Below are positions 6,259 through 48,723 of a stretch of 59,687 nt of DNA, piece after piece. This stretch comes from Acidimicrobiales bacterium (lineage in GTDB: Bacteria > Actinomycetota > Actinomycetes > Mycobacteriales > QHCE01), in the NCBI GenBank assembly GCA_003243955.1, contig QHCE01000002.1:1-59687 (forward strand). Reading direction: 5' to 3'. A program made the position numbers and the translations under genes. Each line of letters starts with the position of its first letter. The first letter of the stretch is position 1. The notes beneath the pieces were generated by a model. It worked only from the letters and a program-made list of their open reading frames with translations, had not been told where the DNA came from and did not search any database.

Positions 6259-6813
6259 TCAGGCAGCGCGGCGATGCGGAGCGTTAGACGTTGAAGGGAA
6301 GGCTTGCGGGGATGAGGGCATATCTATTGGTGCGACCAGCCGAGGGCGGGGGCGCACAATGGAACGTACCAACCAAGCCTCAGCTCGTTGAAATGGCTCC
6401 TTGTCGCCGGCTGCAAGTAACCATCTGACTCGATCAGATGGCGCACCGCGCCGCTGCGCCGGAGCAGCCAACCACGCCACCACTTCACGTTGCACAACCG
6501 CGTCTATCGTGGTGGTGCGGGCGAGCTTCTCTACGAACTCCAGAGCCCGTTTTCGCTGCGATTGGTTCTCAGGGGGACTGTCCTGCCTAGCCACAACATC
6601 GACTTCGCTGGCTTTTCCCGCGTCGTCAGGGACTGGCTCTGCCGTCACGGTAGAACCATTACCTCGATCCAGCACCCGCATACTGGAGGCGTCTAACTCT
6701 TGCTGCGCCACGGTGACAGAGTCGCCTCTGGAGATCAGAGCCGGCACCAATGCCAGCAGGGCTACCCCGATCAGGATTGCGAACAGGACGGCTGACGGCA
6801 CACCAGATGGCAT
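6259..6813 (-). CDS. membrane-anchored protein, candidate GlpR/SepX-type divisome partner
   Basis: Single N-terminal TM (SAVLFAILIGVALLALVPALISRGDSV) and soluble tail; position after galU-moeA/glp-rimJ as in other actinobacteria. Confidence 0.5.
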   Translation of the reverse strand: MPSGVPSAVLFAILIGVALLALVPALISRGDSVTVAQQELDASSMRVLDRGNGSTVTAEPVPDDAGKASEVDVVARQDSPPENQSQRKRALEFVEKLARTTTIDAVVQREVVAWLAAPAQRRGAPSDRVRWLLAAGDKEPFQRAEAWLVRSIVRPRPRLVAPIDMPSSPQAFPSTSNAPHRRAA

Positions 6814-6881
6814 GGCGGCTTCCTCCCGACGCGGTTCTTCAGCGAGTGCTGCACGAGCCCTGACATTACGGCGTGAGGCGC

Positions 6882-7538
6882 TTACTCAGCGGCTGCCACG
6901 CCGAACCACCTTCGGCTAGGGTTCCGCTCGTCTGCGTTGCTTCGCCACTGCGCCAATACACCGTGCGGCGCGGCATCCTCAGCAGTGAGCGCGTAACCCA
7001 GATGGTCGCGCCACTCGCCGTCAATGTGCAAAAACCGCGAATGAAAACCCTCATAACGGAATCGCAGCTTCTCCACCACGCGGCGGCTAGCAACGTTCTC
7101 GGGGCGGATATTGACCTCGATGCGATGCAAGCCCGCCGTGAAGAAGCAGAAGTCGCACGCCAGCGCTAATGCGGTAGGCATGATGCCTCGTCCAGCAAGC
7201 CGCTCATCAAGCCAATAGCCAACAGTTGCGGAGAAGAATGCCCCACGCACAATGTTACCGACGGTAAGCTGGCCAGCGAATTTGTCGCGGTAACAGAGCA
7301 CAAACGGCATGACCTGACCAAGCCGCGCTGGACGGCGCTGCGCGCGCACCATCTGGCGAAACGCTCTCGGGCCGTGGCGCTGTTCCCATGATCCTAGAGC
7401 GGTGGCCTCCCACGGCTCGAGCCAGCTCTGGTTGGCTAGGCGCACCTCACGCCAAGCAGCCAGGTCACTACGCTCATGCGGTCGAAGCGTCACCTCCGCG
7501 TCGTTGAGGGTGACTGGCCAGTCGTGCTGTCGCTCCAT
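6882..7538 (-). CDS. GNAT-family ribosomal protein acetyltransferase (RimJ-like)
   Basis: VTLRPHERSDLAAWREVRLANQSWLEPWE...VGYWLDERLAGRGIMPTALALACDFCF. Confidence 0.9.
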   Translation of the reverse strand: MERQHDWPVTLNDAEVTLRPHERSDLAAWREVRLANQSWLEPWEATALGSWEQRHGPRAFRQMVRAQRRPARLGQVMPFVLCYRDKFAGQLTVGNIVRGAFFSATVGYWLDERLAGRGIMPTALALACDFCFFTAGLHRIEVNIRPENVASRRVVEKLRFRYEGFHSRFLHIDGEWRDHLGYALTAEDAAPHGVLAQWRSNADERNPSRRWFGVAAAE

Positions 7539-44836: not shown

Positions 44837-45445
44837 TTGGCCAGCGTGGTGCTTCCTGTGGGGCACGTCTTGGGCCCGTTCTTCACCGATGAGCACGCCG
44901 AGATTCCAGAATCCGTCGATATTCGGCTCGGCGAGGAACTGATCTCCATTCCCTCGGGCGCCTACGCGGTTTGGGCGGCCGCACACGGCGAGCCTGGGGT
45001 AGACAGCGGGATGCCGCGGGCCGCAACGATCGCCGCCGCGGCGCAGCTGGTCGATGAGCCGGATCGGTGGTTTGACCAACTCACCGCGCGGAGCCTGTTG
45101 GTCGAACTGCCCGACACTCCCCAGGCGCGACAGCGTTTTGCCCGTTCGCATCGGGTGCTGCCGCTGGCCCTGGGCCTGGGGAATTCGGCGGAACATCCGG
45201 ATCGGTTTATAGTGGGAATGGTGGGTGCTCCAGCGGTTACGCTGCCCGCTTCGGCGTTTTTGGCCTGGATGTTTGGCCATCGCTACCCCAGTTTGTGGCA
45301 GACGTGCGAGAATGTAGTGAATACGACACAGCTCATGATTGGTGCGGAAGTGGATCCAGCCGCCGTACTGGCAGACGTGATCACGCTCCTATCACCGCTG
45401 CTGGTCCACGGATGCGCGTGCCTAGATCGGAGGACCGATGGTTGA
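44837..45445 (+). CDS. uncharacterised family, paralog A of three
   Basis: PVGHVLGPFFT...SGAYAVWAAAHG...FARSHRVLPLALGLGNSAEHPDRFIVGMVGAP...SLW shared with 46163 and 46936 ORFs. Confidence 0.85.
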   Translation: MASVVLPVGHVLGPFFTDEHAEIPESVDIRLGEELISIPSGAYAVWAAAHGEPGVDSGMPRAATIAAAAQLVDEPDRWFDQLTARSLLVELPDTPQARQRFARSHRVLPLALGLGNSAEHPDRFIVGMVGAPAVTLPASAFLAWMFGHRYPSLWQTCENVVNTTQLMIGAEVDPAAVLADVITLLSPLLVHGCACLDRRTDG

Positions 45446-46163
45446 GGAAGCCCTCCCGGTGGCTGAGGGAGCGCCCCCGGTGCGGCCGGCACGCTCCTTG
45501 TGGCTGCACCGATTGCTGTATTCGTTTGTTCCTGCTGCCGGCTCCGCCGGTGCGGTGGGCGGGGCGATAGGGGGCGCTTATGGAGGCATCGCGGGCGCCG
45601 CATTGGGCATGACCATAGGCGTTATGGGCAGTATTGGACTATACGCCGCAATAAGAGCATACAAAGACCATAAAGAGCACACGGAGCATCTAGTAGAGCT
45701 TCACAAGCAGTTCCCTAACGACCCCGAAGGTTTACACGCTGCGGTGAAAGCGGAGCGGGGGAAACACCGCCTCCAGAGGGTGCTGGGCACCGGAATTGTG
45801 GCCGGGGCAATGGGGATAACCGGTATCGGTGTCCCAGCCATGACGGCGCTGCCCGCGCTCGCAGTGGGCGCTGCGGCGCTAGGCGCAGCCTACCTGGCTA
45901 CTCGGGCATTCCTCGCGGGCAAAAACCGCTTGACCGATCCCAAACACCTCCGGAATGCCGAGGCCGGAGGGGTTCCGGAGGCAGATCCCGAAGAGGCTCC
46001 GGACAATTCCGATCAACCACGGGTAAATCAGCCGTTTGCGGCAAGGTTTAGCGATAGGGAGGTAATCCCTCCTCCCAGCGCTCATACGCAGCCCAGCCCT
46101 CAATATCCATCTTTACCTGCCGGTATGCAGCGGCCCGTTTCAGCTGCGCATGGCCGCGGTTGA
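45438..46163 (+). CDS. glycine-rich membrane protein with proline-rich C-terminus
   Basis: AGSAGAVGGAIGGAYGGIAGAALGMTIGVMGSIGLYAAI and GTGIVAGAMGITGIGVPAMTALPALAVGAAALGAAYLATRAF; overlaps neighbours at both ends. Confidence 0.85.
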   Translation: MVEEALPVAEGAPPVRPARSLWLHRLLYSFVPAAGSAGAVGGAIGGAYGGIAGAALGMTIGVMGSIGLYAAIRAYKDHKEHTEHLVELHKQFPNDPEGLHAAVKAERGKHRLQRVLGTGIVAGAMGITGIGVPAMTALPALAVGAAALGAAYLATRAFLAGKNRLTDPKHLRNAEAGGVPEADPEEAPDNSDQPRVNQPFAARFSDREVIPPPSAHTQPSPQYPSLPAGMQRPVSAAHGRG

Positions 46164-46786
46164 TGGCCTTTCCTGTGGTTGCTCCGTTGGTTCCGATTGG
46201 CCAGTTTATTGGCACCATGTTTGCTGGTCCTGTGCCTGCCTCTAACACTGCTGGCCAGGCGCAAAGCTGGGGCTACGGGGTTAGGCTCGGAACGGAGCTG
46301 GAAGACCTGAACGAGTCGGAATTCGGCATCTGGGCGCTCTCGCACGGCACCGGAAACGATAAGGTGAACACCGCATCGCGGGGCGCCGTAGAAAAGCTTG
46401 CCAGACAGTTGGACATTGCCGATGCGCAGCATAGTACCGATGCCTTGCTGCAGCGTGGCCTGCTGGCGCGGGTGCTCCCGGTGGCGGCGCAGGCTCGCGG
46501 ATTCGCCCAACATCACCAGCTCATGCCACTGGGCATGGGGCTAGGTAACAGCGCCAGCGCGTTGGGGGCATTCACCATTGGTCAGCCAGGGTTTCCTCGA
46601 GCAACAGTGAGCGCGGTCATTTTCGATGTCTGGGCATTCAGCGCACAGGGCGCTTCGCTCTGGCAAGCGTGCGAGAAAACCGCGGATTGGGGGGAGGAAC
46701 TCACCCCGGAGAGTCTCGCGCTACTGGTGCTGCAAGCGTTGCCGGTGCTGCTGGCCACCGACGCGGCCTACATAGACGTGTGCTGA
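46163..46786 (+). CDS. uncharacterised family, paralog C of three
   Basis: PIGQFIGTMFAG...ESEFGIWALSHG...FAQHHQLMPLGMGLGNSASALGAFTIGQPGFP...SLWQAC. Confidence 0.85.
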   Translation: MAFPVVAPLVPIGQFIGTMFAGPVPASNTAGQAQSWGYGVRLGTELEDLNESEFGIWALSHGTGNDKVNTASRGAVEKLARQLDIADAQHSTDALLQRGLLARVLPVAAQARGFAQHHQLMPLGMGLGNSASALGAFTIGQPGFPRATVSAVIFDVWAFSAQGASLWQACEKTADWGEELTPESLALLVLQALPVLLATDAAYIDVC

Positions 46787-46935
46787 GCAAGTTCTGCCAG
46801 ACAAGTACTGTCCAGTATAGGAAACTGCGACCCCGTAGAATCTCAGCACAAATCGCCGGGTGTTCTTGCCCATCGTATAGTGCATTCGAGTAGGCTCAGC
46901 AGAATATGTAGTTGCGCTTATAGGAGGTCGGCAAC

Positions 46936-47583
46936 GTGGTTGCTCTAGTTGTGCCGGTTGGGCATTTTGCCGGCCCCATGCACACGTCCACCGAGGCTGA
47001 GGTTCCAGAATCGTTTGAGGTTCGGTTCCGTGACGGTGTGTTTTCGCTGTCTGCCGAGGAATACGCGGTGTGGGCGGTCTCGCATGGTGATCCGGAAAAA
47101 GTCTCCAAGCAGCCGCAGTCGCGCCCGGTGGTTGAAGGCGCCGCCAAGGCGGCGGGTGTGGACGAGCCCGGCCCGATCTTTGATTCGCTGATCGACGATG
47201 GCTTACTGGTCTCGGTGATGCCTACCGGTAAATCGAGCCAAACGTTCGCTGAGCAGCATCAGATGGTGCCGTTGGCGCTGGGTCTGGGTAACAGTGCGCA
47301 GAACCCGGCCGAGTTCCAAATTGGGTTGCCCAACGCCCCCAGGGTTTCAGTGGGTTATGACGTTTACCATATGTGGCTGTTCTGCCACCGGCAGCCCACT
47401 TTGTGGGAAGCGATCACCACCATCGCCAAGGAAGCCGAGGAAGCCAACACCGAAGAGCCCAACGCTGAAGGTGAGGAGAAAGTTGAGCTGGTCTCCGATC
47501 CGGATGTCCTCCTCAAGGCGCTACTAGCGGCACTACCGGTGTTGATCTCCACTAGCTGCGTATTCATAGACCGCAGGCCGTAG
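46936..47583 (+). CDS. uncharacterised family, paralog D of three
   Basis: PVGHFAGPMHTSTEAEVPESFEVRF...AEEYAVWAVSHG...FAEQHQMVPLALGLGNSAQNPAEFQIGLPNAP...TLWEA. Confidence 0.88.
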   Translation: MVALVVPVGHFAGPMHTSTEAEVPESFEVRFRDGVFSLSAEEYAVWAVSHGDPEKVSKQPQSRPVVEGAAKAAGVDEPGPIFDSLIDDGLLVSVMPTGKSSQTFAEQHQMVPLALGLGNSAQNPAEFQIGLPNAPRVSVGYDVYHMWLFCHRQPTLWEAITTIAKEAEEANTEEPNAEGEEKVELVSDPDVLLKALLAALPVLISTSCVFIDRRP

Positions 47584-47931: not shown

Positions 47932-48723
47932 ATGTCCAATACCCCCCTTCAAGTACAGCAAGTCGACACTAATCGTTTTACCGCAGAGCTTGACGAAGAC
48001 TGGTCCTTTGGCGAGCGGATCAACGGCGGATACCTACAAAGTGTCGCCGCCAACGCCGCTTGTCAAACAGCGTTACACGATGATCCGATCGCTGTAACTA
48101 CAGATTTCCTCATCGCCGCGCAAGGTGGTGCGGCTGAGCTCATCACTGAGCCGCTTCGCTTTGGCAACAGCATCGACGTCATCCGAGTCATTCTGCGACA
48201 AAACGGTCGGGCCGTACTGGTCTCTTCGGTGGTGGTGGGAGCCCTGGACGGAAAACCAGCAGATATGGATATGTCCGTCAGCGCCGACGTGCCATCGCCT
48301 GGCCTCTGCACCCGAATAGAGAGCGACACCCTACCTGGCCGAATTCTGCCGCTGATGGATCGAGTGGAGATTCGGCTAGCTCCAGAATCTATGCCACTGC
48401 TGCGAGGGCAGGCAGATGGAAGTTTCGCGCTTCGCGGCTGGGCGAGAATGACGGGTGAATCCGAGCTCGATGCTTTTGCGTGCTTGGCTATCGCCGATGC
48501 ATTTCCTCCCGTCACGTTCACGCTTGGGCGGCACAGTTGCGCGCCTAGCGTGCAGCTAAGCACCTATCTGCGCGCCAAACCGGTGCCGGGCTGGCTGCGA
48601 GGTGAGCTACGTGGCCGTGTACTCGGCGGCGGATGGTTCGACCAAGACTGCACGGTTCGAGACACTGCCGGAAACGTGATTGCGCAATCCCACCAGTTAG
48701 TACGCGTACCTCGACGTAATTAA
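47932..48723 (+). CDS. acyl-CoA thioesterase-like family protein
   Basis: FTAELDEDWSFGERINGGYLQSVAANAACQTA; WARMTGESELDAFACLAIADAFPPVTF. Confidence 0.85.
   Translation: MSNTPLQVQQVDTNRFTAELDEDWSFGERINGGYLQSVAANAACQTALHDDPIAVTTDFLIAAQGGAAELITEPLRFGNSIDVIRVILRQNGRAVLVSSVVVGALDGKPADMDMSVSADVPSPGLCTRIESDTLPGRILPLMDRVEIRLAPESMPLLRGQADGSFALRGWARMTGESELDAFACLAIADAFPPVTFTLGRHSCAPSVQLSTYLRAKPVPGWLRGELRGRVLGGGWFDQDCTVRDTAGNVIAQSHQLVRVPRRN

Follow-up and report, generated by a model that had tools for sequence, protein, structure and literature searches.

The window, the whole stretch of 59,687 nt analysed here, contains a cluster of four genes that we call A, B, C, and D (Table 1). The first-pass annotation had delimited these open reading frames (ORFs), and their positions, the overlap of 8 nt between A and B, that of 1 nt between B and C (4 nt if C starts at its TTG), and the gap of 149 nt (about 150 in that annotation) between C and D were all confirmed. 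The TTG start of A has a GGAG 7 nt upstream, and the profile of the protein family modelled below matches this gene over positions 44846-45427. The start of D is preceded by AGGAGG, a strong ribosome-binding site of its own, and consensus scans for promoters and terminators gave nothing above chance. The inclusion of D in one operon with A-B-C is therefore unproven.

Table 1. Features of the locus, with positions in the window.
Feature	Position	Strand	Description	Basis
Gene A	44837..45445	+	Family member, predicted tandem PqqD/RRE-like winged helix; 202 aa; TTG start	ORF, alignment to C and D
Gene B	45438..46163	+	241 aa; ATG start; two hydrophobic hairpin modules rich in Gly and Ala, a charged linker, and a Pro-rich tail	ORF, composition rule
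B hairpin module 1 (about residues 12-78)	45471..45671	+	Strong glycine zipper	
B hairpin module 2 (about residues 108-166)	45759..45935	+	Without zipper motif	
Gene C	46160 (TTG) or 46163 (ATG)..46786	+	Family member; 207-208 aa; start overlaps the stop of B	
Gene D	46936..47583	+	Family member; 215 aa; GTG start; best conserved copy	ORF, AlphaFold2
Acyl-CoA thioesterase	47932..48723	+	Conserved neighbour of D, context only	Pfam 4HBT_3/4HBT_3C, synteny in L030

The locus had been described as apparently inserted into a conserved actinobacterial core, and the comparison with a metagenome-assembled genome (MAG) of the sister genus contradicts a recent insertion. The order DUF3027, A-type copy, D, thioesterase, SepH, SerC is common to both genomes, with other genes lying between the A-type copy and D in the sister MAG, and D is 72% identical to its counterpart there. 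Since the neighbourhood of D is syntenic in the sister genus, the locus is old. As for the flanks named in the same annotation, the thioesterase and SepH are present as described, and the DUF2530 assignment falls just below the Pfam cut-off (24.3 versus 25.5 bits).

Homology among A, C, and D extends along the full length of the proteins, with identities of 32-40% that are far beyond chance (A-C: 32%, E 6e-24; C-D: 34%, E 1e-32; A-D: 38-40%), which bears out their description as divergent paralogues with shared motifs. Three further copies are found in the source genome (2.42 Mb in 91 contigs, 94.8% complete), on contigs C6, C10, and C11. The failure to recognise a family for these proteins also agrees with our sequence searches, which gave no characterised match: there was none for A, C, and D in Pfam at E 1 or in NCBIfam, none for the family in Pfam at E 10 (PqqD profile included), and no usable one for the family profile among PDB chains. 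Designed PPR chains that came up in the PDB search were discarded, as their match is confined to a short repeat-like stretch. The isoelectric point is between 4.1 and 6.5 in 65 of 67 family members, the two exceptions being at 7.3 and 9.0. A, C, and D are members of a family not described before, whose proteins are small, soluble, and for the most part acidic.

An AlphaFold2 model of D, made from an alignment of eight sequences (mean pLDDT 88.5, pTM 0.83), shows two successive strand-then-helix units. In the first half, strands at 4-8, 27-31, and 34-38 are followed by helices at 40-48, 63-72, and 78-88; the second half is similar, with an extra strand. The predicted fold is that of two fused winged-helix units with the topology of PqqD and of the RiPP recognition element (RRE). 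Three strands and then three helices is the order given in the strict definition of an RRE, a type of fold known for peptide binding (PMC12710340). The two halves also resemble each other in sequence: an internal repeat occurs once in each, as PVGHxxG in one half and PLxxGLGN in the other, and these motifs align with each other when the halves are compared with hhalign (P 8.8e-6). One of the 40 column-shuffled controls, a degenerate one, scored 128.8, above the real score, so the case for a repeat rests jointly on the P value, the register of the alignment, and the predicted topology. Profile comparison with 11 PqqD sequences gave P 1.7e-4 for the first half of the family (score 24.6, best shuffle 12.9) and P 0.007 for the second. 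A Foldseek search of the PDB with the model of D placed first the RiPP-biosynthetic oxidase ThcOx (E 3.5e-4), which begins with RRE-type domains, followed by methyltransferases of Rickettsia (PKMT, from E 1.1e-3) and, lower, McbBCD (E 0.36); the TM-scores of these matches are low, so they point to a type of fold only.

The order of strands and helices and the weak similarity to PqqD profiles could mean that these are true RREs of a RiPP pathway, in which a modifying enzyme would receive from them either B or some cryptic peptide. We regard this as highly improbable. Beside the copies examined we saw neither a modifying enzyme nor a precursor-like gene, and the family is for this reason not filed as a RiPP RRE; B itself, at the length given in Table 1, is membrane-like. 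The family also differs from RRE/PqqD proteins (PF05402) in having two units fused.

Gene B encodes two Gly/Ala-rich hydrophobic segments, a charged linker, and a proline-rich tail, as the first-pass annotation had read it, and the composition rule finds a charged stretch after each segment. Folded alone by AlphaFold2, B is predicted as all-helical with low confidence (pLDDT 63). Its first module has nine glycine-zipper motifs against 1.1 in shuffled sequences, and the partner encoded beside the C6 copy has five against 1.2. We rejected the idea that hairpins in general carry zippers, because the giant proteins described below have 47 where 38 are expected. Homology of B to the hairpins of these giants was also discarded: the matches are marginal and, being driven by composition, are not to be trusted.

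A low-complexity protein, hydrophobic or helical, is encoded at -8 to +3 nt after A in the window, after the C11 and C6 copies, after those on C5 and C71 of the sister genus, and after one copy in the genome G005. By the fixed rule, B has two hairpin modules; the partners of C6, C11, G001-C5, and G005 have one; and that of G001-C71 has none. A looser rule finds a second hydrophobic segment in the C11 partner, placing two segments beside one family gene. No gene of this kind is seen next to the singletons D and C10. The association with a hydrophobic Gly/Ala-rich protein, noted initially in the window, thus recurs at other loci of the source genome, in the sister genus, in a more distant genus, and, with giant proteins, elsewhere. 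The C11 copy and its partner are flanked by two small coiled-coil-type proteins with RLDGIDG-like repeats (L007:3036-3347, 6605-6940).

Searched across the order, the family is present in 52 of 399 genomes, and Kribbella, from another order, also carries it. A phylum-wide draw returned the source genome only; few candidates were scored per genome, so this draw was insensitive. Plasmid and phage collections contained no match. The relatives often have the family as quartets, sets of four paralogues whose positions form separate clades within families. Tandem sets that keep position-specific clades support the view that different and non-interchangeable paralogues act together. The number of family genes is exactly four at each of the eight discovery loci where the giant protein beside the quartet is full. 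Quartet and giant are convergent, their ends less than about 100 nt apart in seven of the eight loci and about 1.5 kb apart in G018. In G005, several single family copies come after XRE-type regulator genes, unlike the giant-linked quartets (L045, L094, L096).

The giants encoded beside quartets are 3,336-10,929 aa long, lengths that refer to full ORFs; gene calling in these high-GC genomes also gave antisense shadow ORFs. The longest is one uninterrupted ORF of 10,929 codons (G012:C1:7470184-7502973; L081, L082, L038); loci of related genomes near type VII secretion (T7SS) genes have further ORFs of 3,300-7,100 codons, and G059 has an open frame of 20,955 codons. Pfam scans of two giants place WXG100_2 at their start, a genome search does so for several others, and in G003a one ORF encodes the WXG100_2 start and an adjacent one the giant body. 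The first-pass annotation of the window had not anticipated a link to type VII secretion. In the lineages f3 and f12, the giant sits between the quartet and the T7SS gene EccB, and the assembled quartets are 13-40 kb from EccB; Kribbella soli has two family copies about 6 kb from it. This position at a T7SS locus is found in f3, f12, and Kribbella and is absent from the source genome, its sister, and the f16 genomes G038 and G047 (without EccB). Pairs of family genes lie near a group of MoxR, DUF58-like, and transglutaminase-like genes in Kribbella and possibly in G616 (L052:2155-6319, L178:13100-15310), the group having been assigned by eye except for the MoxR of Kribbella.

In the source genome we found no giant alongside the family copies. 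EccB is also missing, so classical export is not available there. This genome encodes a 1,487-aa protein with FHA and FtsK/SpoIIIE ATPase domains (G000:C70, L098:7267-11730). It recalls the FHA-bearing ATPase of the T7SSd of Actinomycetota (PMC11217815) and may belong to a T7SSd-like or other minimal WXG100 system.

Tandem winged-helix proteins could also be transcription factors that bind DNA and regulate nearby genes, as the predicted topology and the G005 copies placed after XRE-type regulator genes might suggest. This is very unlikely, because the mostly acidic isoelectric points argue against DNA binding, what profile similarity there is points to PqqD, a type that binds peptides, and four adjacent regulators per giant would be an odd arrangement.

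In the family-linked giants, hydrophobic segments rich in Gly and Ala occur in clusters, with a charged stretch after every segment; we detected them as hairpins with a composition-based rule. The largest cluster comprises three or four hairpins in 16 of 18 family-linked giants (for one of which, G049, the locus was inferred across a contig break) and zero or one in 11 control giants that have no family genes beside them (Mann-Whitney P 2.7e-6, uncorrected for ancestry). The rule finds three hairpins each in G035 and G012, where a fourth can be recognised by eye. G035 also has, between positions 1 and 2 of its quartet, a 231-aa gene on the opposite strand that looks, by eye only, like an immunity protein (L036:7242-7937). 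Applied to eight new quartet-bearing loci of f16, the rule, fixed beforehand, found four hairpins in seven and three in one. C-terminal profiles made from f3 or f12 giants match family-linked giants and none of the controls. In the window, two family genes, A and C, overlap the two-hairpin gene B. At the pair-type loci of f14-f16 a hairpin partner is often not to be seen, and the two hairpins of the G044-C62 pair locus are far apart. Because the loci are related by descent, the agreement in number rests on few independent lineages (f3, f12, and f16). The counts suggest one family protein per hairpin, with A and C for the two hairpins of B and D as a separately conserved copy.

From these analyses, we give about even chances to the family being dedicated cytosolic chaperones or neutralisers of membrane hairpins, with one protein per Gly/Ala-rich hairpin of the partner. 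Each family protein would bind, in the cytosol, one hydrophobic hairpin and the charged stretch that follows it, so that the hairpin stays soluble and does not enter the membrane of the producing cell before it is exported or assembled. The client in many relatives would be a giant WXG100-type T7SS substrate, each of whose four hairpins would have a different family protein; in the window it would be B, whose two hairpins would be served by the products of the overlapping genes A and C, with D as a conserved extra copy outside this pairing. The family proteins probably keep the hairpins of their partners in check inside the cell; export of B, and any toxicity, are putative. Counting against the chaperone reading are the shared descent of the loci, the f14-f16 pairs that show no hairpin partner, D and C10, which show none either, the mismatched partners of C11 and G001-C71, the distant hairpins of G044-C62, and the lack of EccB in the source genome.

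This lack of EccB speaks for B staying in the cell's membrane as a scaffold, with A, C, and D bound to its cytosolic charged helices in a hetero-oligomeric peripheral complex that has no chaperone role, an idea close to that of the first-pass annotation. The overlapping genes, a hydrophobic B with charged stretches, and the position-specific paralogues are as expected for such a complex, which we nevertheless consider rather unlikely given that the partners in relatives are giant WXG100-type, i.e., likely secreted, proteins.

The giants and B might alternatively be membrane-active toxins that the family only neutralises, with no help in export. The family adjoins WXG100-type giants, a class known to include toxins, and ExiAB, discussed below, has been described as immunity (PMC12744356). 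This reading partly overlaps with that of chaperones. Sets of four are nevertheless conserved by position, and the linked giants share a C-terminal domain that is conserved, not variable. Immunity genes usually vary with the toxin, and pure immunity seems unlikely to us.

The closest parallel to the proposed chaperones is ExiA/ExiB (DUF5085), the partners of the T7SSb toxin EsxX in Staphylococcus aureus, which sequester its glycine zipper (PMC12744356). They are soluble paralogues with an internally duplicated fold, like the family, and are encoded beside a type VII substrate, as the quartets of the relatives probably are; they hold a glycine-rich membrane segment in the cytosol (PMC12744356), as we propose for the family. 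We rejected membership of the family in DUF5085, as there is no Pfam match and the predicted fold is a duplicated winged helix, whereas that of ExiAB is a duplicated SHS2 (GyrI-like) fold. ExiAB is moreover a pair for one zipper, while the family, which is actinobacterial, would have up to four proteins for four hairpins. The Eag chaperones of type VI secretion are likewise dedicated to transmembrane segments of effectors (PMC7773334), the role proposed here, but in a different secretion system and phylum and with no sequence relation seen (no Pfam match). EspG (PF14011) of mycobacterial ESX systems is, as proposed for the family, a small cytosolic partner of particular substrates near a T7SS; homology to it was rejected, since PF14011 matched neither A, C, and D in the Pfam scan (E 1) nor any protein in 15 family-bearing genomes, and EspG is not among the top Foldseek matches. 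The giants we tested start with WXG100_2 and adjoin T7SS genes, as do WXG100_2 giants and polymorphic toxins (PF25547; PMC3482391); those linked to the family stand apart as a class by their clustered hairpins and common C-terminal domains, unseen in the 11 controls. No paper that connects PqqD to type VII secretion came up in a literature search of partial coverage.

At somewhat less than even chances, we place a more specific proposal: a modular one-protein-per-hairpin chaperone system of duplicated RRE-like proteins for actinobacterial membrane-hairpin proteins, whose clients include type VII substrates of 3,000-11,000 residues, with each of four hairpins assigned to a different paralogue. 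The window would be its minimal stand-alone form, two chaperones and one two-hairpin client, without a classical secretion apparatus. Outside EspG-PE/PPE and EsxX-ExiAB, it is largely open how giant type VII substrates with hydrophobic segments are kept soluble before export and how the producer spares its own membrane. Relative to the known dedicated partners of hydrophobic segments, what would be new here is a different fold and a testable counting rule: four ordered paralogues and four hairpins make a countable code that can be tested directly. The proposal would give a likely function to an unannotated protein family and a handle on giant actinobacterial proteins that have few recognisable domains.
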